From the NCBI RefSeq assembly GCF_014218335.1, contig NZ_AP023367.1, positions 1,613,501 to 1,677,500 on the forward strand: a DNA stretch of 64,000 nucleotides. Direction: 5' to 3'. Made by a program: the position numbers and the translations under genes. The DNA is from Anaerocolumna cellulosilytica (GTDB taxonomy: Bacteria > Bacillota > Clostridia > Lachnospirales > Lachnospiraceae). Below are positions 2,130 to 55,844 of the stretch, piece by piece. Under the pieces are notes generated by a model. That model had not been told where the DNA came from, did no database searches, and worked only from the letters and a program-made list of their open reading frames with translations. Position 1 is the first letter of the stretch. Every line of letters starts with the position of its first letter.

Positions 2130-2157
2130 TTGACTAATCAATAAAAAACAGTATAAT
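2130..2157 (+). promoter_or_regulatory. sigma-A promoter of the SDMH operon
   Basis: TTGACT at 2130-2135, a 16-base spacer, then a perfect TATAAT at 2152-2157. Transcription should begin near 2164, just upstream of the aptamer at 2196. Confidence 0.75.
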
Positions 2158-2195
2158 TATAATAAAAATACAAAGAAGTATTTGGTTATGACTAC

Positions 2196-2340
2196 TTCTT
2201 GTATAAGCTCATTAATATGGTTTGAGCGTTTTGACCAGGCAACCTTAAATTGCCCCAGGCTACATGAGTAACAAATCCGAACTGCCGTTTTACAGAAGCG
2301 ACTGGTTCTGGATTGTGTCTCTTAGCCTGGGGCTTTTCTT
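2196..2340 (+). promoter_or_regulatory. Purine-class riboswitch variant with intrinsic terminator (predicted ON switch)
   Basis: The RNA folds like the guanine/adenine aptamer. P1 pairs 2196-2203 with 2261-2268 (one U-U mismatch), J1/2 is UAA (2204-2206), and P2 pairs 2207-2213 with 2221-2227. L2 is AAUAUGG (2214-2220). J2/3 is GUUUUGAC (2228-2235). P3 core pairs 2238-2242 with 2250-2254, and L3 is CCUUAAA (2243-2249), so the loop-loop GG/CC contacts are kept. The specifier C74 equivalent is C2260. Compared with the Bacillus subtilis xpt aptamer, positions equivalent to C50, U51 and A73 are U, G and G, and there are extra bases around P3. GCCCCAGGCTA (2252-2262) pairs perfectly with 2323-2333, followed by TTTTCTT, giving a terminator whose left arm uses P3, J3/1 and P1 bases. 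Ligand binding should therefore block termination. The gene controlled is a xanthine dehydrogenase-type operon, so xanthine or a related purine is the likely ligand (inference). Confidence 0.8.
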
Positions 2341-2551
2341 ATATCCAGGTTTAATCCTGACTATACAATGAGGATAGGTGAATAAGAAAATCAATTGCAA
2401 TGATTGAACTGAGTGTGCCAATGCATGCAGATGGGAGCTAAGGCTGAAAGAAAATATAAAATAATGGAAGGAAGCCACGCAAAGATTCTTTCAACCTATT
2501 TATATGTGGCAGTACCGGAAGAAAAGTTTGCGGTATACAATGGGCGTAAAT

Positions 2552-4045
2552 ATGAAGAAAACAATTCGCTTCTTTCTAAATGGGAATTTAAAAGAGATAC
2601 AGGTAAAGGCAGAAACCACCGTATTGGAACTTCTTCGGAACAACCTAGAATTAAGAGGAATAAAGGAAGGCTGTGGCGAAGGTGATTGTGGTGCCTGTAC
2701 CGTTGTAATTGGTGAAGTCAGACAAGGTAAGGTGCATTACAAGTCAGCTGCCGGCTGTCTTTATCTGGCAGCTAAATTAGAAGGTAAACACTTAATAACC
2801 ATCGAGGGATTATCAGAGAAGGGGAAACTTCATCCCATACAAGAGGCAATACTAGGTGCCCATGCAACCCAATGCGGATTCTGCACACCGGGGGTAAGCC
2901 TGTCCATTCTGGCATTATATCTGGAAAGAGAAAGTCCAACCAGAGAAGAATTTCGCAGATATTTAGAAGGAAATCTTTGCCGCTGTACCGGATATGTCTC
3001 GCTTCGGGAAGTACCAGAATATCTAAAGGATTTATCGGTCTGTTCTAAGGACATCAGACCTGGTTATTTAACTGAAACAGAGGAAAAACAGCTTCATTTT
3101 GTCCAAGAGGATATCTTTGTAGATGACGGTATCTATGCCTATTATTCACCGGTTTCAGAAGATAACCTATTGGAGTTTTTACATAGCCATACAGAATTAA
3201 CAGAAGGAAATAACTTTCGTTATATAAACGGTGGCAGCGATGTAGTGGTAGGTATTAAGAAAAGGAAGCAGCACCATAGATTACTCATAGACTTAAGCAA
3301 AATATCATCTTTGCAGGATATTATTTATAATAGCAGTATGAAGGATGTACCGGAAAATATTCTAGTAACAAATGTATTAACAATGGGAGGAAGTGTATCA
3401 CTATCCAGAATCATAGATTTCACAAAAAAAATATTTCCTGTATTTTCTGAAGCGGTAGAAAAAATGTGTTCTGAGCAGGTACGTTCCTCTGCTACGTTAG
3501 CGGGGAATATAGTCAATGCCTCTCCTGTTGCAGATACGGTTCCTCTGCTCATGGCGGTGGATGCCAAACTCACCTTAGGCGGACCTGGAGGAGAGAGAAG
3601 GATTCCGGTAATAGATTTCTTTCATGGATATAAAAAGACTAAGAATAAAACGGAAGAATGGATTTCTTCTATCTCCATTCCTTTGAATGAATATGACTTC
3701 ATACATTTTGAAAAAGTAAGCAAAAGAAAAGAAGTGGACATTTCGGCAGTTAATTCAGCCATTGCCTTAAAAGTGGAACAGGGGACAATTACAAAAGCCC
3801 GTATCGCCTGTGGAGGGGTTGGTGCAACGACTCTCTATATGCCAAAAACTTCTAAATTCCTGGAAGGTAAAGAAATGAAGGAAGAGACTTTTTTAAAAGC
3901 TTTTAAGGTTATAGTCACAGAAGCAGCTCCTATTGGGGATGTAAGAGGAAGTGCAGAATACCGAAAGGCAATGATGCAGAATTTGTTAATGAAGCATTAT
4001 CTGGCTTATAAAACCAGGCAGGAGGTAGATGGATATGAAGCATGA
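2552..4045 (+). CDS. Xanthine dehydrogenase-type subunit with [2Fe-2S] and FAD domains
   Basis: Electron-transfer subunit of a molybdenum hydroxylase, about 497 residues, cytoplasmic. Residues 1-75 form a plant-type ferredoxin domain with Cys41, Cys46, Cys49 and Cys69. The second, helical [2Fe-2S] domain has Cys108/Cys111 (CGFCTPG) and Cys143/Cys145 (CRCTGY). From about residue 175 a CO-dehydrogenase-type FAD domain follows, with a GGSDVVVG motif and an RSSATLAGNI motif. It thus joins in one chain what other systems carry as two subunits. The start is uncertain: the ATG at 2552 begins right at the ferredoxin fold but has no clear Shine-Dalgarno; ATGs at 2504 and 2540 are in frame. The stop overlaps the start of the next gene, which encodes the matching molybdopterin subunit. 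Expression should be set by the riboswitch at 2196-2340. Substrate (xanthine, hypoxanthine or another purine) is inferred from context only. Confidence 0.88.
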   Translation: MKKTIRFFLNGNLKEIQVKAETTVLELLRNNLELRGIKEGCGEGDCGACTVVIGEVRQGKVHYKSAAGCLYLAAKLEGKHLITIEGLSEKGKLHPIQEAILGAHATQCGFCTPGVSLSILALYLERESPTREEFRRYLEGNLCRCTGYVSLREVPEYLKDLSVCSKDIRPGYLTETEEKQLHFVQEDIFVDDGIYAYYSPVSEDNLLEFLHSHTELTEGNNFRYINGGSDVVVGIKKRKQHHRLLIDLSKISSLQDIIYNSSMKDVPENILVTNVLTMGGSVSLSRIIDFTKKIFPVFSEAVEKMCSEQVRSSATLAGNIVNASPVADTVPLLMAVDAKLTLGGPGGERRIPVIDFFHGYKKTKNKTEEWISSISIPLNEYDFIHFEKVSKRKEVDISAVNSAIALKVEQGTITKARIACGGVGATTLYMPKTSKFLEGKEMKEETFLKAFKVIVTEAAPIGDVRGSAEYRKAMMQNLLMKHYLAYKTRQEVDGYEA

Positions 4046-6379
4046 ACGGACAGATAGCAGCAGCTCACAGTGGGGGCAAGTAGGCACTTCACCGTTACAT
4101 ATAAGCGGACGTAGCCATGTAATGGGACGTTCTGAGTTTATTGATGACATTCCCAAACCCCGTAACCTATTGTATGTAAAAATATTGACAAGTCCCCTTG
4201 CCCATGGAAAGATAAGTAAGCTAAACGTGGAGAAAGCCAGAGAAATGCCGGGCGTTATGGCGGTTCTTACGGCAAAGGATATACCAGGAGAGAATCAGAT
4301 TGGAGGAATTATAAAGGATGAGGTCTGTTTAGCGCAGGAACAGGTACATTTTGTAGGAGAACCGGTAGCTATTGTAGCAGCTGAAACCATAGAGGAGGCG
4401 GAAGCTGCATTGGAGCTTATCGAATTACAGCTGGAAGAAGAGATACCGGTATTAACGATAAAAGATGCCATAGCTAAGAATCAGTATGTGGGACCGGTAA
4501 GAAAAAAATTGAAAAAGGGGATGTGGAAGCAGTTTTTGCAGACTGCCCAAACTATCTGGAAGGAGTAATCTGTAACGACGGACAGGAACACTTTTATCTG
4601 GAGACTCAAAGTGCACTGGCTGTACCTGAGGATACGGGTGGCTTAACTATATATTCCTCTTCTCAGAATCCCAATGAGATACAACGGATGACTGCTACTG
4701 TACTGGGTTTACCGCAACACCAGATTACTGTAGATATTAAAAGACTTGGAGGCGGTTTTGGCGGGAAGGAATCACAGGCAACTGTTTGGGCATGTTTAGC
4801 GGCACTTGCAGCTTTCCATACAGGACGACCGGCAAAGCTTTGTCTAGCCAGGGAGGAAGATATGCTGTGTACGGGCAAGCGTCATGCCTTTGAAAGTAAT
4901 TACCGCGTAGCCTTTGACAAAAAGGGGAAGATACTTGCTTATTCAGTGGAACTTAATTCCAACTGTGGTGCTGTTGCTGATGTGAGTACTTCTGTACTTG
5001 AGAGGGCTATGCTGCATGCTGAGAATAGTTATCAGATTGAGAATATCCGCATTATCGGCAGACCCTGTAAGACCAATCTTCATCCGGCTACAGCTTTTCG
5101 AGGTTTTGGAGGCCCCCAGGGAATCTTTGCTATCGAGAGTGTTCTACAAAGAATCGCTTTTACCTTAGGTCTTGACCCTTATGATGTAAGAGTGAAAAAT
5201 AGATACAGACAGGGAGATATTGCTCCGTATGGAGAAGAAATTATCCATGCGGAGCACATGGATAAGGTTTTTGATAAGTTAAGAAAAGATAGTTTATGGG
5301 ATGAACGGAGGAAGAATACCATAACTTTTAATGCTGAGAATAAGTATTATAAAAAAGGTCTTTCAATTACGCCTGTTAAATTCGGGATATCTTTTACGGC
5401 AGCGCATCTAAATCAGGGAAGTGCTCTTATACATGTTTACTTTGACGGTTCCATCTCTGTAACCCATGGAGCCATTGAAATGGGGCAGGAGGTGAACACC
5501 AAGATTGGTCAGATAGCAGCCACTAATTTTGGTGTACCTTTATCGTATGTGCGTATTGAAAGTAATAATACGAAAAGAGTTGCTAATACTTCCCCTACGG
5601 CAGCTTCCTCCGGCTGTGATCTAAACGGCTATGCAGTGGAGGCAGCTTCCTTAGAGATAATGAAGCGATTAAGAGAATTAGTATTAAAACTTTTTAGTGA
5701 GGCAGAAGTAGTATTTGAGAATGGATTTGTTTATCCTGTAACAGCAGACGGGGCGACCTATGAAAATCCTCTTATATCTTTTATAGAACTGGTGAAAAAA
5801 GCTTACTATGAACGAATTAATCTGTCAGCCCATGGTTTTTATGCCACACCGGGAATCCATTTTGACAGGGATAAAGGACAGGGGCATCCTTTCTTATATT
5901 ATGTATTCGGTGCAGCAGTCAGCGAGGTAACAGTGGATTTACTAACAGGACACACTACCCTTGATTATGCCCATATTATACATGATTGTGGCAGTAGTAT
6001 AAATCCAAGAGTAGATGTGGGGCAGATTCAAGGAGGTTTTGCCCAAGGAATTGGTTGGGTTACCACAGAGGAATTGGTGTACAATGAGAAAGGAAAACTT
6101 CTTAGCAGTTCCCCTGCTACCTATAAAATCCCAACCATAGGAGATATGCCGGAGGAATTTCATATTGAGCTGCTAGAGGGAAGTATCAATGAACAGGGAA
6201 TTAAACGCTCTAAAGCAATCGGAGAGCCCCCCTTTGTATATGGAGAATCTGTATTTTTTGCCATTGTGGATGCGCTCTGTTCCATGGGGAGATATCCGGA
6301 AGAATTAAGCATACCGGCAACTCCGGAAAAAGTATGGCGTGAAATAAGGAGGAATATTGATAATGGAAGAAAAGAGTAA
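4035..6379 (+). pseudogene. Molybdopterin-binding subunit of a xanthine dehydrogenase-type enzyme, split by a frameshift
   Basis: Catalytic subunit that binds the molybdopterin cofactor, about 780 residues if read through. The start ATG at 4035 follows GGAGG (4021-4025) at good spacing. Translation in the first frame runs to 4568, but similarity to the family leaves that frame at an A7 run (4502-4508). The next frame (GTG at 4523 through 6379) carries the rest, including the GGGFGGKES cofactor-binding motif and an AFRGFGGPQG motif. One extra A, or a -1 slip on codons AAA-AAA, joins 'PVRKK' to 'IEKGDVEAVFADCPNYLEG' without loss. Both parts keep coding character right up to the junction, so the break is recent, a read error, or bypassed by slippage. 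It pairs with the preceding FeS/FAD subunit; the end overlaps selD by 17 bases. Listed as pseudogene because the frame is broken as given. Confidence 0.8.
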
Positions 6380-7433
6380 AGTACGTTTAACAACCATGTC
6401 TACCAAAGCCGGTTGTGCAGCCAAATTCGGTCCTGGTAATCTGGCTAAAGTTATGGCACATATGAATAGGCAGGAAAGAAAGGATGATCCGAACTTGATT
6501 GTAGGGTTTGGTACTTGTGATGATGCAGGCGTTTATAAGATAGCACCGGATTATGCCCTAATTCAGACAGTGGATTTCTTTACACCAATTGTAGATGATC
6601 CGTACACCTTTGGAGCCATTGCGGCTACCAATGCATTAAGTGATGTTTATGCCATGGGAGGAACGCCTCTGACCGCTCTAAATATCTGTTGTTTTTCCAC
6701 AGGATTGGATCCTGAGGTGTATGCAGAGATTCTTCAGGGAGGACTGGATAAGGTAACAGAGGCGGGGGCAGTGGTTCTTGGCGGCCATACAGTTACCGAT
6801 AATGAAGTGAAGTTTGGCGTTTCCGTAACCGGTCGTGTGCATCCGGATAAGGTGCTCACGAATGGTGGTGCAAAACCGGGTGATGTTCTTATCTTAACAA
6901 AGCCCATCGGGACAGGAGTGCTTAGTACTGCCTTTAAGAATGAAATGATTTGTGAGGAAGATATGAAGGAAGCAATTACTTCCATGAGTACCTTAAATAA
7001 GACAGCTTCTGAAGCTGCCCAAAAAATCGGTGTCAATGCATGTACGGATGTGACTGGTTTTGGACTATCCGGTCACTCCTATGAAGTAGCAGCAGCCAGC
7101 AATGTAAATATAAGAATTAATATTTCAAAAGTGCCTGTAATGGAAGGCGTTCTTAATTTAATTGAGAAGGAGTGCATACCGGGAGGCGGATATGCCAATA
7201 GAAGTCATTATGAAAAGTGGATTGAATTTGAAGGAGATATTTCGGATATAAAGAAGGCTCTGGTTTTCGATCCGCAGACCTCAGGAGGACTGTTGCTCTT
7301 TGTACCTAAGGAAAAAGCACTTGACCTTGTAAGAGAGCTTAAGGAGAGAGGAACTTTGAGAAGTCAGGTAATTGGAGAAGTAATGTCAAAAACTGAAGGA
7401 GAGAAATTCATTACCTATTATGAAGGAGAATAA
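6363..7433 (+). CDS. selD: Selenide, water dikinase (selenophosphate synthase)
   Basis: Makes selenophosphate from selenide and ATP, the activated selenium donor, 356 residues. The ATG at 6363 follows AGGAGG (6347-6352) at ten bases; an upstream TTG at 6357 is possible but too close. The N-terminal catalytic pair is visible as Cys18 and Lys21 in KAGCAAK, so this is a cysteine-type, not selenocysteine, enzyme. The second cysteine of the E. coli GCGCK motif is replaced by alanine. The AIRS-type ATP domain follows, with DDAGVYKI and GGHTVTDNE motifs, then the C-terminal domain (TDVTGFGLSGHS, FDPQTSGGLL). It sits inside the operon between molybdenum hydroxylase subunits and yqeC/yqeB. That is the recognised signature of selenium use in a labile molybdenum-hydroxylase cofactor. 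No selA or selB lies in this window. Confidence 0.95.
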   Translation: MEEKSKVRLTTMSTKAGCAAKFGPGNLAKVMAHMNRQERKDDPNLIVGFGTCDDAGVYKIAPDYALIQTVDFFTPIVDDPYTFGAIAATNALSDVYAMGGTPLTALNICCFSTGLDPEVYAEILQGGLDKVTEAGAVVLGGHTVTDNEVKFGVSVTGRVHPDKVLTNGGAKPGDVLILTKPIGTGVLSTAFKNEMICEEDMKEAITSMSTLNKTASEAAQKIGVNACTDVTGFGLSGHSYEVAAASNVNIRINISKVPVMEGVLNLIEKECIPGGGYANRSHYEKWIEFEGDISDIKKALVFDPQTSGGLLLFVPKEKALDLVRELKERGTLRSQVIGEVMSKTEGEKFITYYEGE

Positions 7434-7521
7434 AGAATAGGCAGTACTTATTATTTCCACTGCGTATAAACCTAGCAGTATGCAAAATAGTTTAAAAAAT
7501 TATTTATCCGGAAAGGTTCTT

Positions 7522-7857
7522 ATGAGTGAAATTATTATAATCAATAGCGAATGTATGGGAAAAGGAAATGAGGAGCTTGGCAAGACACTAATAGGTGCAT
7601 TTTTAAGAAAACTCTGGGCGCAGGAGAAGAAGCTGAGTAATATTATACTGTATAATTCAGCAGTAAAGCTTATAGCGGACGGCTCTGTAGTATTAGATGC
7701 CATGGATGGGCTGTTCAGTGCAGGAGTAGATATATTAGCCTGTGGAACCTGTGTAGAATTTTATCAGTTAAAAAACAGCATAAAAACTGGGCGTATCAGC
7801 AGCATAGATGAAATTTGTGCTTTGATAATGCATGCCGATAAGGTTATAACAATATAA
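7522..7857 (+). CDS. yedF: Selenium metabolism protein of the YedF family, DsrE-like domain only
   Basis: A 111-residue protein, thought to act in sulfur/selenium transfer. The ATG at 7522 follows GGAAAGG (7510-7516). The sequence matches the C-terminal DsrE-like half of YedF: 'INSECMGKGNEELGKTLIGA' near the start, then LYNSAVKLIADGS and LACGTCVEFY. Two cysteines in ACGTC are candidates for carrying the chalcogen. Typical family members also have an N-terminal TusA/SirA-like domain with a conserved cysteine. It is absent here, and no open frame for it lies in the 88 bases before the start. It sits between selD and yqeC in the SDMH operon, which supports a role in selenium delivery. The family role is inferred from neighbourhoods in other bacteria rather than from firm biochemistry. 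Confidence 0.82.
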   Translation: MSEIIIINSECMGKGNEELGKTLIGAFLRKLWAQEKKLSNIILYNSAVKLIADGSVVLDAMDGLFSAGVDILACGTCVEFYQLKNSIKTGRISSIDEICALIMHADKVITI

Positions 7858-7933: not shown

Positions 7934-8644
7934 ATGCAACTCACAGAAGCACTTAATCTGGTGCCGGATGGCAAAGGGACAATGATTAGTTTTGTGGGAG
8001 GTGGTGGTAAAACATCCTCTCTTTTTGCACTTGCCTATGAACTGGCAGGAGCAGGGAAGAAGGTATTAGTAACTACTACGACTGCAATGTATAACCCGGT
8101 GGGAGCATGTCACCCAAATATTACCATACTAGGAGAGTATATAACCACAGAAGGAAAGCTAAAAGGCATTACGAAAGAAAGGACAGATGAGATTTATAAG
8201 TTGAACAGCTATGATTATATCCTCGCAGAAGCGGATGGATCCAGAGGCAGGCCCATAAAAGCACCGGCAGAACATGAGCCCGTAATACCAAGAAATACTG
8301 GCATTTTAATTGGTGTAATAGGAATGGATGCTTTTGGGAAAGAACTATCGGCGGCTTATGTCCACCGACCCGAAATTCTAAGCGAGTTGACCGGAGCAGG
8401 TCTTTGGGATAGGGTCAATGAAGAGGTGATAGTAAAGCTTGTATCACATCCATTGGGACTTTTTAAGGCGTGTCCATTAGGAGCTGATAAAATACTTCTT
8501 CTTAACAAAATTCTTGAGGATGGGACAAAAGATGCGGCCAGAAAGATAGGGTATAAGGTACTTGAGGCCTGTTATAGTATTGATAGGGTCATATTGGGAG
8601 CTGTTCAGGAAGAAGAACCTGTAAAAGAAATAGTACTGAGGTGA
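7934..8644 (+). CDS. yqeC: Selenium-dependent hydroxylase accessory protein YqeC
   Basis: Marker protein of selenium-dependent molybdenum hydroxylases, 236 residues. A P-loop (GGGGKTS, about residues 22-28) near the N-terminus shows a nucleotide-binding fold, followed by VLVTTTTAMYNP and the acidic motif ILAEADGSRGRPIKAPAEHEP. These are the hallmarks of the YqeC family, whose exact reaction is not established; it is presumed to help make or insert the labile selenium cofactor. The ATG at 7934 follows AGAGGG. It ends one base before the mocA reading frame, so both are surely co-transcribed. Length is normal for the family and nothing looks damaged. Confidence 0.92.
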   Translation: MQLTEALNLVPDGKGTMISFVGGGGKTSSLFALAYELAGAGKKVLVTTTTAMYNPVGACHPNITILGEYITTEGKLKGITKERTDEIYKLNSYDYILAEADGSRGRPIKAPAEHEPVIPRNTGILIGVIGMDAFGKELSAAYVHRPEILSELTGAGLWDRVNEEVIVKLVSHPLGLFKACPLGADKILLLNKILEDGTKDAARKIGYKVLEACYSIDRVILGAVQEEEPVKEIVLR

Positions 8645-8648
8645 GATG

Positions 8649-9239
8649 ATGATTGCGGTTATATTAGCAGCCGGTTTATCTAAACGGTTTGGTGGTAAAA
8701 AGCTTTTGAAAGAAATACAGGGAAAAGCGATGGTACTCCATGTGACAGACCTTGTAGGTAATATGGACTTTGAACAGAGGATTTTGGTTTATTCCGATGA
8801 AGCAGTGTTAAATAAAGTAAAGGATAGTTGCGGATGTGCTTATGACTATCAATTTTTCTATAATAGGCAGGCAGAGAAGGGATTAAGTACATCTATAAGA
8901 CTTGCCTTGGAAACTCTAGCAGGCGATAACAAAGACACCGGCATTATCTTCTTTGTTGCGGATCAGCCTTTTGTAGATGAAACTACGGTAAAAGTTCTAT
9001 GTGAAGCTTATAATGAGGGAAAGGGCTCGATAATCGTTCCTTTGTATGGTCAAAATAGAGGAAACCCGGTGGTCTTTTCAAATAAATGGATAGAACAGCT
9101 TAAAAATCTGGAAGGTGATGTAGGCGGACGTATTATCATAAGAGAGAATCCGAAAGAGGTATGGGAGGTTCCTCTTGTTGATGATAGAATAGGCAGAGAT
9201 ATTGATACGATAGAAGACTACCACGCCCTATTTAGGTAA
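8649..9239 (+). CDS. mocA: Molybdenum cofactor cytidylyltransferase-like protein (MocA/YgfJ)
   Basis: Nucleotidyltransferase that probably adds CMP to molybdopterin to form the cytosine dinucleotide cofactor used by bacterial xanthine dehydrogenases. It has 197 residues and is cytoplasmic. The N-terminal ILAAGLSKRFGGKKLL is the nucleotide-binding loop of the GT-A NTP-transferase fold, and FVADQPFVD in the middle is the metal-binding strand with DQP. GNPVVFS and the terminal DIDTIEDY also match MocA/YgfJ. Two ATGs occur at 8646 and 8649; the second has better spacing from GAGGTGAG. The gene abuts yqeC and precedes yqeB, the standard order in SDMH clusters. The choice of CTP over GTP is from family knowledge, not read from the sequence. 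Confidence 0.9.
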   Translation: MIAVILAAGLSKRFGGKKLLKEIQGKAMVLHVTDLVGNMDFEQRILVYSDEAVLNKVKDSCGCAYDYQFFYNRQAEKGLSTSIRLALETLAGDNKDTGIIFFVADQPFVDETTVKVLCEAYNEGKGSIIVPLYGQNRGNPVVFSNKWIEQLKNLEGDVGGRIIIRENPKEVWEVPLVDDRIGRDIDTIEDYHALFR

Positions 9240-9284: not shown

Positions 9285-10097
9285 ATGAAGATACAGAATA
9301 ACCTTGTCGTGGTAAGAGGGGGAGGAGATCTGGCAACAGGAGTTGCTTATCGGTTAATTCGATGTGGTTTTAAGGTAATAATACTGGAGATAGAAAAGCC
9401 AACGGTTATACGTAGAACCGTAGCTTTTGCGGAAGCAGTATATCATGGCGTGGCTGTAGTGGAAGGTATACAGGCAATAAGAGTTCAGAATGCAGAAGAA
9501 GCCATACATTGCGTAACAAAAAATATGGTTCCGGTGGTAGTGGACCCTGCCGGGGACACGCTTCCTGTATTTAAACCTGATGTTCTGGTGGATGCGATTC
9601 TTGGGAAAAGAAATCTGGGTACCCGTCTTAATATGGCACCTATAGTAGTGGGGTTGGGGCCGGGCTTTTGTGCGGGAGAGGATGTACATGCAGTAATTGA
9701 GACCAACAGAGGGCATAATCTGGGTCGTGTTTTTCTTGAAGGGACAGCGGAGCCTGATACAGGTGTTCCGGGCGTAATCGGAGGCTTTGATTACCAAAGA
9801 ATATTAAGAGCCCCTAAAGACGGAGTGATTCGAACCGTGAAGGAAATCTGTACAACAGTACAGTGCGGAGAAGTTATTGCCTATGTAGAGGATTTACCCA
9901 TTGTCTCCCACCTTGAAGGGGTACTTCGTGGACTTATAACCGATGGATTGTGGGTAAAGAAAAACCTCAAAGTAGGAGATGTGGATCCCAGATGTAAAAT
10001 CGAATATTGTTATTCCATATCGGATAAAGCACGTGCCATTGGAGGTGGTGTGCTTGAAGCAATTCTGTATTTATTAAAGAAAGAAGGGACCGGCTGA
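9285..10097 (+). CDS. yqeB: Selenium-dependent molybdenum hydroxylase system protein YqeB
   Basis: Second marker protein of the SDMH trait, 270 residues. The N-terminus (VVVRGGGDLATGVAYRL) is a Rossmann-like nucleotide-binding motif, followed by RTVAFAEAVYHG and later VGLGPGFCAGEDVHAVIETN and RGH motifs characteristic of the family. Its reaction is unknown; genome neighbourhood studies tie it to maturation of the labile selenium cofactor. A fairly weak AAAGGA (9267-9272) lies 12 bases before the ATG. The stop at 10097 is one base from the start of the xanthine dehydrogenase gene, so the two are tightly coupled. A possible lipoyl-like or barrel C-terminal segment (GVIRTVKEICTTVQCGE, VAYVEDLPI-type) is suggested by its repeated beta pattern, but this is tentative. 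Confidence 0.92.
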   Translation: MKIQNNLVVVRGGGDLATGVAYRLIRCGFKVIILEIEKPTVIRRTVAFAEAVYHGVAVVEGIQAIRVQNAEEAIHCVTKNMVPVVVDPAGDTLPVFKPDVLVDAILGKRNLGTRLNMAPIVVGLGPGFCAGEDVHAVIETNRGHNLGRVFLEGTAEPDTGVPGVIGGFDYQRILRAPKDGVIRTVKEICTTVQCGEVIAYVEDLPIVSHLEGVLRGLITDGLWVKKNLKVGDVDPRCKIEYCYSISDKARAIGGGVLEAILYLLKKEGTG

Positions 10098-53173: not shown

Positions 53174-53199
53174 TGCTTAAAATAGTGAAAAGGCTATGA

Positions 53200-53470
53200 A
53201 GAGAAATAGTAAGTATACAATAAATTTCAGAGAGAAGATGGATGGTGAAAATCTTCATTTTAGTATATCGAAGCAGTCTCGGAGCTTTGAACCGAACAAT
53301 TATTTGTCCCTAGGAAAAGTAGTTTAGTAGGCTTCAACGTATTCCCACGTTATAGGGGACGCGGTATGATAGTATCGTATGAGAGTGCAGAGATTCTTCT
53401 GAATTTAGGTGGTAACACGGATTGTATATTCGCCCTAAACGTTTCGACGTTTAGGGCTATTTTTTTTTCA
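53200..53470 (+). promoter_or_regulatory. T-box leader, asparagine-specific, with terminator
   Basis: The leader has the Stem I features CAGAGAGAAGATGG and TGGTG near 53230 and an AGTA box. The likely specifier AAC (Asn) lies at 53290-53292; a second AAC at 53295-53297 gives the same reading. The T-box sequence TTTAGGTGGTAACACGG (53404-53420) follows AGAGTGC. The terminator is GCCCTAAACGT (53432-53442) pairing with 53447-53457, then eight or more T. Uncharged tRNA-Asn should favour the antiterminator and switch on the aminotransferase and asnA genes. Confidence 0.88.
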
Positions 53471-53504: not shown

Positions 53505-54722
53505 ATGAGAAGTTTCGAAAAGTCAAGTAAACTGGACAATGTGTGTTATGATATTAGAGGGCCTGTCATGGATGAGGCCAATAAAATGATAGGGCAAGGA
53601 ATGAATATATTAAAACTGAATATTGGCAATCCGGCACCTTTTGGTTTTCGAGCTCCAAAAGCACTGTTAGCAAGACTAAATGACAATTTAACAGAGACAG
53701 AAGGGTATTCAGATTCTAAGGGATTACTTTCAGCAAGAAAAGCTATCGTAAAATACTGTAATAAAAAGGGGATTGAAAATGTTACCATAGAGGATGTATA
53801 TACAGGAAATGGCGTTAGTGAGCTGATTACGTTATCTATGCAGGGGCTTCTAAATTATGGGGATGAAATTCTAGTGCCTTCACCTGATTATCCTTTATGG
53901 ACGGCATCAGTAACCTTAGCAGGAGGTAAGGCAGTACATTATGTCTGCGATGAAAGCAGCGAATGGTTTCCTGATATCAAGGATATTAAGAGCAAGATTA
54001 CGGACAGAACAAAAGGAATTGTTGTCATTAATCCCAATAATCCTACAGGTACATTATATCCCAAAGCTATTCTAAATGAAATCGCAGAGCTTGCCCGCCA
54101 AAGCGGATTAATAATTTTTGCTGATGAAATCTATGACAGACTGGTTTTAGATGAATTAGAACACATCTCTATAGCTTCCCTTGCACCAGATCTTTTGACA
54201 GTGACCTTTAACGGACTTTCTAAATCCCATTTAATAGCAGGATATCGCTGTGGATGGATGAGCCTTTGCGGTAATAAGTCCTTTGCAAAAGGCTACGTGG
54301 AAGGCATTAATTTATTATCTTCCATGAGGCTGTGTTCCAATGTTCCGGCTCAGTCAGTCATAGAAATAGCATTGGAAATGGAAGAAGAAACAAAAAGCCT
54401 GCTGTTACCGGGGGGCAGGATATATGACCAGAGGGAATACATATATAAGGCATTGAATGAAATCCCCGGCATCTCAGTTGTAAAGCCGAAAGCGGCATTT
54501 TATATGTTCCCCAAAATAGACGTTGAAAAGTTTAATATATCCAGTGATGAACAATTTGTTCTAGACTTTTTAAAAGACAAGAAGATTCTACTGACACATG
54601 GAGGTGGTTTCCATTGGGGGAAACCAGATCATTTCAGAGTGGTTTTCCTGCCTGAATTAGTAGAATTAAAGAAGGCATGCACTGCGTTGGCAGATTTTAT
54701 GTCATATTACAGACAAAAATAA
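53505..54722 (+). CDS. PLP-dependent aminotransferase (AlaA/aspartate aminotransferase family)
   Basis: A 405-residue cytoplasmic class I aminotransferase. Typical motifs: LNIGNPAPFGF, TGNGVSELITLSMQ (cofactor phosphate loop), VVINPNNPTGTLYP, IFADEIYDRLVLD with the PLP aspartate, and TFNGLSKSHLIAGYRCGW carrying the Schiff-base Lys. This resembles the alanine/valine-pyruvate AlaA-AlaT group. Position under an asparagine T-box directly before asnA suggests it supplies aspartate, but the sequence alone does not settle the amino donor. GAAAGAAGG lies before the ATG at 53505. Confidence 0.9.
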   Translation: MRSFEKSSKLDNVCYDIRGPVMDEANKMIGQGMNILKLNIGNPAPFGFRAPKALLARLNDNLTETEGYSDSKGLLSARKAIVKYCNKKGIENVTIEDVYTGNGVSELITLSMQGLLNYGDEILVPSPDYPLWTASVTLAGGKAVHYVCDESSEWFPDIKDIKSKITDRTKGIVVINPNNPTGTLYPKAILNEIAELARQSGLIIFADEIYDRLVLDELEHISIASLAPDLLTVTFNGLSKSHLIAGYRCGWMSLCGNKSFAKGYVEGINLLSSMRLCSNVPAQSVIEIALEMEEETKSLLLPGGRIYDQREYIYKALNEIPGISVVKPKAAFYMFPKIDVEKFNISSDEQFVLDFLKDKKILLTHGGGFHWGKPDHFRVVFLPELVELKKACTALADFMSYYRQK

Positions 54723-54839
54723 ATATTATATAAATTTTCATTGCATTATTAATATTTATGCCTATAATAATACATAAATATACAATCAAAAGTTATTGAT
54801 ATTGTATTGAAAAAAAGGTTAAAATCAGGAGGTGTATGT

Positions 54840-55844
54840 ATGCATTACATACCGGAAGGTTATAAAAGCAAAACAAAGTTAAGAGAAACAGAAATAGCGA
54901 TTAAACTCATTAAGGATTATTTTGAAACGAATCTGGCAGCTAAGTTAAATCTAACCAGAGTTTCTGCACCTTTATTTGTTCGTCCTGAAACAGGATTAAA
55001 TGACAATTTAAACGGTGTTGAACGCCCGGTTTCATTCTCTGGTATCGGTACACAGAGCAGAATTTGTGAGATAGTTCAGTCACTTGCGAAATGGAAAAGG
55101 ATGGCGCTGAAACGATATAATTTTTTAGTTGGTGAAGGATTGTACACAGATATGAATGCTATCAGATGTGATGAGACACTAGACAATATCCATTCCATCT
55201 ATGTTGACCAATGGGATTGGGAAAAAGTAATATTAGAAAAAGACAGAACCATTGAAACATTAAAAAATACTGTTAATAAAATTTATGAGGTATTTTTAGA
55301 AACAGAAAAGTATGTCTGTAGTAAATTTGCTGCTTTTGAAGCTAAATTACCGAAAGAAGTGACCTTTATTACCAGCCAGGAACTTATGGATTTATATCCT
55401 GAACTTTCTGCAAAAGACAGAGAAAAAGCTTTTGTAAAAGAAAAGGAAGCTATTTTTATTATGCAGATAGGTGATAAACTGAGTAACGGCCAAAGGCATG
55501 ACGGACGTTCGCCAGATTATGATGACTGGAATTTAAATGGGGATTTAATTTTGTATCATCATCTTTTGGACATAGCCTTTGAAGTATCCTCTATGGGAAT
55601 ACGTGTTGATGCAGAGGCCATGAACAGACAGTTAACAGAGGCAGATGCCGATAATCGAAGAACATTGCCGTATCATCAGGATATTTTAAATAACCGGTTA
55701 CCATTCACTATAGGAGGGGGAATCGGTCAGTCCAGAATATGTATGTACTTCATGGACAAGGTACATATCGGAGAAGTACAGGCTTCTGTATGGGAAGATG
55801 ATATGTTAGATTATATGGCGGAAAGAGATGTTGAAATTCTTTAG
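54840..55844 (+). CDS. asnA: Aspartate-ammonia ligase (asparagine synthetase A)
   Basis: Makes asparagine from aspartate, ammonia and ATP in the cytoplasm, 334 residues, the usual length. It has the class II aminoacyl-tRNA synthetase-like fold: YKSKTKLRETEIAIKLIKDYF, VSAPLFVRPETGLNDNLNGV, RPVSFSGIG, KRYNFLVGEGLYTDMNAIR, DQWDWEK, and the C-terminal LPYHQDIL with TIGGGIGQSR. AGGAGG (54827-54832) lies seven bases before the ATG at 54840; an upstream in-frame TTG is not needed. Co-transcribed with the aminotransferase behind the Asn T-box, which fits demand-driven asparagine supply. Confidence 0.96.
   Translation: MHYIPEGYKSKTKLRETEIAIKLIKDYFETNLAAKLNLTRVSAPLFVRPETGLNDNLNGVERPVSFSGIGTQSRICEIVQSLAKWKRMALKRYNFLVGEGLYTDMNAIRCDETLDNIHSIYVDQWDWEKVILEKDRTIETLKNTVNKIYEVFLETEKYVCSKFAAFEAKLPKEVTFITSQELMDLYPELSAKDREKAFVKEKEAIFIMQIGDKLSNGQRHDGRSPDYDDWNLNGDLILYHHLLDIAFEVSSMGIRVDAEAMNRQLTEADADNRRTLPYHQDILNNRLPFTIGGGIGQSRICMYFMDKVHIGEVQASVWEDDMLDYMAERDVEIL

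Follow-up and report, generated by a model that had tools for sequence, protein, structure and literature searches.

Xanthine-II riboswitches were described, in the accessible sections of Hamal Dhakal et al. (PNAS 2022, PMC9295807), as variants of guanine riboswitches that carry a U51G substitution, a two-nucleotide insertion in junction J2-3 and a further insertion in J3-1. According to the same sections they have an ON architecture and precede dioxygenase, allantoinase and xanthine dehydrogenase genes, and the leader of Paenibacillus allB binds xanthine with a KD of ~36.5 µM while rejecting guanine at 100 µM. The sister group guanine-II is characterized there by a retained U51 and a one-nucleotide J2-3 insertion, and is most commonly found before phosphoribosyltransferase genes. 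PMC12776560 refers to a crystal structure of xanthine-II (9IWF, Xu et al. 2025).

The window analysed here is a 64,000-nt stretch of the Anaerocolumna cellulosilytica genome. A leader within it had been predicted to fold as a guanine/adenine aptamer (P1, P2, P3, L2 AAUAUGG, L3 CCUUAAA, the C74 equivalent kept), with U, G and G at the positions equivalent to C50, U51 and A73. The Rfam covariance-model search proposed with the original prediction gave a match to the Purine family (RF00167) at window positions 2179-2282 on the forward strand, with a score of 55.3 bits (gathering threshold 37) and a whole-window E-value of 9.9e-7. This is the single RF00167 match at E ≤ 0.001 in the 5.43-Mb genome. 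The Infernal alignment confirmed both the fold and the three substitutions, and showed that U22 is retained along with C74 (Table 1). T-box and Purine were the only families listed in the Rfam scan of the window. Three further lax matches in 1900-2600 all fell under their family gathering scores; one of them, to the microRNA family mir-460 (E = 0.0033), was set aside as chance.

Table 1. Features of the riboswitch leader and the genes downstream of it, in window coordinates
Feature	Coordinates	Strand	Basis
Promoter of leader (probable), TTGACT-16-TATAAT	2130..2157	+	Consensus scan, 11/12 matches
Xanthine-II aptamer, three-way junction P1-P2-P3	2193..2269	+	RF00167 match and alignment with 23 other G51 aptamers
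P1 5′ strand; partner 2261-2268; U-U mismatch 2199/2265	2196..2203	+	Infernal alignment and helix test
P2 hairpin, L2 AAUAUGG (2214-2220)	2207..2227	+	Infernal alignment and helix test
J2-3 GUUUUGACCA; U50 = 2232, G51 = 2233	2228..2237	+	Infernal and aptamer alignments
P3 hairpin, L3 CCUUAAA (2243-2249)	2238..2254	+	Infernal alignment and helix test
J3-1 CCAGGC with insertion; G73 equivalent 2259, C74 equivalent 2260	2255..2260	+	Infernal and aptamer alignments
Terminator left arm GCCCCAGGCTA, built of P3, J3-1 and P1 bases	2252..2262	+	Perfect 11-bp complement to 2323-2333
Terminator right arm TAGCCTGGGGC (2323-2333) and T-rich tail TTTTCTT	2323..2340	+	Complementarity to 2252-2262
xdhA-like Fe-S/FAD xanthine dehydrogenase subunit; start probably 2552 (cf. 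L004)	2504..4045	+	Four Pfam domains over cut-off; TIGR02963 384.5 bits, under 467
xdhB-like molybdopterin subunit, frameshift-split (ORFs 4029-4568, 4523-6379)	4029..6379	+	TIGR02965 in two pieces, each under 849.5
selD, selenide water dikinase	6357..7433	+	TIGR00476 396.5 bits, cut-off 125
YedF-like selenium metabolism protein	7480..7857	+	TIGR03527 106.7 bits, slightly under cut-off 110
yqeC, selenium cofactor biosynthesis	7934..8644	+	TIGR03172 168.6 bits, cut-off 73.05
mocA-like molybdenum cofactor cytidylyltransferase	8646..9239	+	TIGR03310 153.5 bits, under cut-off 186.45
yqeB, selenium-dependent molybdenum cofactor biosynthesis	9285..10097	+	TIGR03309 370.6 bits, cut-off 220
Selenium-dependent xanthine dehydrogenase, single open frame, 870 aa	10099..12711	+	TIGR03311 1276.8 bits, cut-off 830.45

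The window aptamer shares its purine-type three-stem junction, the loop letters (from which the kissing-loop pairing was judged) and U22 with the guanine-I and adenine riboswitches of RF00167, whereas these have U51 and junctions without insertions. In the window, U51 is replaced by G, and both J2-3 and J3-1 exceed the lengths found in guanine riboswitches when P3 is taken as GGCAA/UUGCC. With P3 beginning at 2238 (GGCAA), J2-3 is two nucleotides longer than in guanine riboswitches and one longer than in guanine-II-like relatives, and J3-1 reads CCAGGC, which includes the insertion. The guanine-II-like loci resemble the window in J3-1 CCAGGC, in scaffold and in ON arrangement, but they keep U51, have a one-nucleotide J2-3 insertion and are associated with phosphoribosyltransferase genes. 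Xanthine-I (NMT1), which probably has the same ligand and is linked to similar genes, has an entirely different fold, as described in the accessible sections of PMC9295807. The 2′-deoxyguanosine and 8-oxoguanine classes were considered on the basis of published descriptions.

With xanthine-II, the window has in common the U51G substitution, two additional nucleotides in J2-3, the J3-1 insertion, an ON-type terminator, purine-degradation genes including xanthine dehydrogenase, and an origin in the Firmicutes. It differs in its U at position 50, in an L2 (AAUAUGG) like that of guanine riboswitches, and in an operon that additionally encodes selenium-dependent molybdenum hydroxylase functions. 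Since its junctions, U22, G51 and C74 match those of the G51 relatives described below, the window aptamer belongs by sequence among the xanthine-II aptamers, a single base being unusual, and the leader is most likely a member of this already published class and not a new kind of switch. The aptamer family, its distinguishing features, the terminator and the gene context were all observed, and we are highly confident that the leader is a xanthine-II riboswitch acting as an ON switch for the xanthine dehydrogenase (xdh) operon. Within this assignment, xanthine is the presumed ligand by analogy with the Paenibacillus relative on which binding was measured (accessible sections of PMC9295807), and the ON direction is the one that the leader architecture suggests.

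An altered ligand pocket with xanthine as the probable ligand had been put forward in the original prediction, and the comparison with xanthine-II features supports it. The junction insertions (J2-3 GUUUUGACCA, J3-1 CCAGGC) were not spelled out there. The prediction had also left open whether the aptamer belonged to a known class or was a further variant. The first option stands, and the second finds no support apart from C50U, because the window aptamer has the traits by which PMC9295807 describes xanthine-II. An ordinary guanine riboswitch, of guanine-I or guanine-II type and responding to guanine, would have the same scaffold and loop letters and would likewise match RF00167. However, G51 in place of U51, the insertions in J2-3 and J3-1, the terminator overlapping the aptamer and the catabolic operon all argue against it, as does the rejection of guanine at 100 µM reported for the published xanthine-II aptamer in the same part of that paper, and we consider a guanine response exceedingly improbable.

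Relatives of the leader were collected by pattern and covariance-model searches. A pattern scan of a collection of 84,980 species gave 15 matches, of which three reach the RF00167 gathering score: L004 (Herbinix sp.), L005 (Clostridiales UBA11329) and L008 (Desulfosporosinus sp.). This first pattern demanded AUAUGG in L2 and was blind to Paenibacillus-like members, because none of those has such an L2. A pattern search of 200 genomes of the window's family gave four matches in three genomes. One, L017, is the window's own; the others are L018, L019 and L020, the last of which lies at another place in the genome of the window. These three were dropped as pattern-only matches in which a purine aptamer was absent by eye beyond the pattern. 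A covariance model, R1, built from the window, L004, L005 and L008, was searched against 148 genomes of family f29 (probable Paenibacillaceae), 15 genomes of the window's genus, the three genomes of L004, L005 and L008, and 398 genomes of the phylum at E ≤ 1e-11. The AUAUGG-restricted pattern had at first raised the suspicion of a class separate from xanthine-II, which the search of family f29 dispelled.

All 26 f29 matches of at least 63 bits were aligned (15 G51, 11 U51). The full alignment comprises 69 distinct rows, 24 of them clear G51 and 45 U51, the latter number being that of a sample since weaker f29 matches and phylum matches were aligned only in part. The 24 G51 rows represent 19 distinct sequences, 15 of the rows coming from the probable Paenibacillus family; this count may omit G51 aptamers whose junctions differ, because both pattern and model rest on a J2-3 of the window type. 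The match L153 (G324:C60, 67 bits) was left out of the 24. U22, C74 and a J2-3 of the form GU[UC]U[CU]GACCA are common to all 24, as is a J3-1 of the form C[CU]AGGC (CCAGGC in 17 rows, CUAGGC in 7). L2 AAUAUGG is present in five of the 24 and in none of the 15 Paenibacillus-like rows. The guanine-II pattern, with a J2-3 shorter by one nucleotide (GUNUCUACA) and a J3-1 of CCAGGC or CCAGC, was seen in 12 of the 45 U51 rows. Within the window's genus, the aptamer was found in 4 of 15 genomes (5 of the 15 being only 63-81% complete), and the same four carry xdhB (TIGR02965, E ≤ 1e-100).

Position 50 is the one junction position at which the window stands alone: it is C in 68 of the 69 rows, including the other 23 G51 rows, and U only in the window. 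In guanine riboswitches this position helps to form a base triple adjoining the ligand, and on this ground C50U might have turned the specificity or affinity of the aptamer from xanthine to another ligand, such as urate or hypoxanthine, or made the switch weaker, which would make the leader a further variant class. However, the remaining junction positions equal the xanthine-II set, a similar xdh operon is found at L004 together with C50, and a lone change confined to one genome can be without effect. A shift of this kind is distinctly improbable in our view. In a xanthine-II riboswitch, C50U may have no effect, adjust the response or impair it, and as a natural point variant it could be used to test the role of base 50.

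The helices of the aptamer are well maintained among relatives. Across the 19 distinct G51 aptamers, standard pairs fill 98.5% of helix cells, compared with 30.5-58.6% when the partners are slid. Compensatory changes in homologous leaders, named in the original prediction as something to look for, were found: four pairs change on both sides in the G51 alignment, against none or one when slid, and 1 of 500 shuffles reaches four. As the alignment was fitted to the structure and comprises close relatives, these figures are to be taken as support for the structure and not as proof of it. The number of further pair types in the G51 alignment (11) shows no excess over shuffles (mean 10.0; 119 of 500 reach 11).

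The left arm of the terminator had been predicted to draw on P3, J3-1 and P1 bases, and its perfect complement was located downstream (Table 1). The terminator 11-mer occurs in the window at these two places only and in none of 100 dinucleotide shuffles; when 2270-2400 was shuffled 20,000 times by mononucleotide, its complement arose in 0 shuffles and any 7-mer of it in 266. For 2190-2336, ViennaRNA gave -50.3 kcal/mol for the terminator form and -32.5 kcal/mol for the aptamer-enforced form. A leader ending at 2318, and hence without the right arm, was predicted to fold into P1-P2-P3, with the outer P1 slightly shifted and two additional C-G pairs between J2-3 and J3-1. The motif CCAGGC is present twice in the aptamer, at the J2-3/P3 border (2235-2240) as well as in J3-1 (2255-2260), so the first copy is a conceivable alternative partner for the right arm; in the RNAfold prediction, however, the J2-3 CC is paired with the J3-1 GG instead. 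A promoter scan found one site upstream of the leader, a weak call by itself because shuffles give a mean of 2.2 such sites.

Because the left arm holds P3, J3-1 and P1 bases, aptamer and terminator are mutually exclusive, and bound ligand should therefore prevent termination. This overlap of terminator and aptamer (2252-2262 with 2323-2333), known from sequence alone, corresponds to an ON architecture. We hypothesize that G51 and the enlarged J2-3 and J3-1 form a xanthine pocket within a three-way junction like that of guanine riboswitches. When xanthine is scarce, 2323-2333 would capture 2252-2262 in the nascent RNA, breaking P3, J3-1 and P1, and the intrinsic terminator would form before the xdh operon. 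When xanthine is bound, the aptamer would hold 2252-2262 and permit read-through into the xdh and selenium-cofactor genes.

The overlapping terminator recurs among relatives, which together with the window's own terminator lends support to the ON logic of the original prediction. In an ungapped scan run without a shuffle control, with tails judged by eye, a helix between J3-1 or the P1 3′ strand and a downstream arm was found at 22 of the 24 G51 loci, the arm holding or directly preceding a CCUGGGG-like stretch. The left arm lies in P3/J3-1 at 16 of these 22 loci (7 to 28 bp) and starts in P1 at the other 6. At L096 and L144 the same scan gave no clear overlapping helix, with pairings of 5-6 bp only. 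The window and most of the clostridial loci have a clear T-run behind the arm, whereas that of L086-L090 is weak. One arm pair varies between loci, being C-G in the window, U-A in L004, L140 and L141, and U-G in L005 and L139.

The genes downstream of the leader, with an xdhA-like gene, a split xdhB-like gene and a selenium-dependent xanthine dehydrogenase gene, are of the purine-degradation type. The xdhA-like, xdhB-like, YedF-like and mocA-like proteins all score under the curated NCBIfam cut-offs. Gene context and comparison with relatives support the claim that the leader controls a xanthine dehydrogenase operon. The leader is an added member of a rare, validated riboswitch class, placed before a selenium-dependent xanthine dehydrogenase operon, and leaves the picture of the class unchanged. 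Xanthine dehydrogenase is already among the genes listed for the class (PMC9295807). In a C. acidurici paper (PMC3519856), a glycine riboswitch is the only riboswitch mentioned in the part available.

The second ORF of the xdhB-like gene is in the -1 frame, and the split lies near a run of seven A (4502-4508); an error in sequencing, slippage and a real mutation are all conceivable causes. The gene is a single ORF in L004, L139, L140 and L141. A frameshift in the first xdh large-subunit gene, together with a base at position 50 that is unique to this leader, would fit a decaying, non-functional leader in a degenerating operon. However, the aptamer helices and the terminator are complete, as are the other, open ORFs of the operon, among them that of the 870-aa selenium-dependent xanthine dehydrogenase, and the frameshift, situated at a seven-A run, may come from sequencing error or slippage. 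We judge decay to be very improbable.

The first downstream ORF was profiled at 11 of the 24 G51 loci, and at 9 of these 11 it fits the gene kinds published for xanthine-II. Rieske oxygenases come first at L086, L096, L097, L099 and L144, amidohydrolases at L092 (over the AllB allantoinase cut-off) and L093 (Pfam only), and xdhA-like ORFs at the window and L139. Of the two other loci, L091 has a phosphoribosyltransferase ORF first and a Rieske oxygenase ORF next, and at L142 the first ORF encodes a BMP-family binding protein. The ORFs at L004, L005 and L008 resemble xanthine dehydrogenase subunits on reading, without a profile scan, and the genomes of L140 and L141 also carry xdhB. The U51 sister loci L081, L095 and L098 precede phosphoribosyltransferase-like genes that score under equivalog cut-offs.

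Three U51 aptamers, L115 (1501-1576), L116 (1501-1577) and L150 (1501-1577), precede genes for xanthine dehydrogenase large subunits (L115 and L116 by NCBIfam, L150 by eye), and for this reason gene context alone cannot fix the pocket. In L116 and L150, J2-3 has the xanthine-II length and J3-1 reads CUAGGC; a terminator overlapping the aptamer was recognized by eye in both. The aptamer L153 (2013-2090, reverse strand) is a possible further variant. Its J2-3 (GUGCAGUACCA) is one nucleotide longer than in xanthine-II, J3-1 is CCAGGC, and a terminator overlaps J3-1 by eye. It is followed by a 300-aa ORF resembling glutamate formiminotransferase by eye, and it shares its genome with the G51 aptamer L112. 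The C50U of the window, the xdh-linked U51 aptamers and L153 might be taken to form a wider set linked to purine degradation, with differing pockets for xanthine, hypoxanthine or urate and with G51 as one of several solutions, an idea we regard as unlikely. L115, L116, L150 and L153 are better places than the window in which to seek a new variant.

Two other U51 aptamers, L113 (1501-1577) and L121 (794-870), from two genomes of one genus, have an unusual J3-1 (AUAGCC and AAAGUC, respectively), and the ORF that follows them (443-459 aa) has no NCBIfam match at 1e-20. The T-box leader of the window lies at 53187-53440 (122.5 bits) and is followed by ORFs that by eye resemble an aminotransferase (53505-54722) and the asparagine synthetase AsnA (54807-55844).
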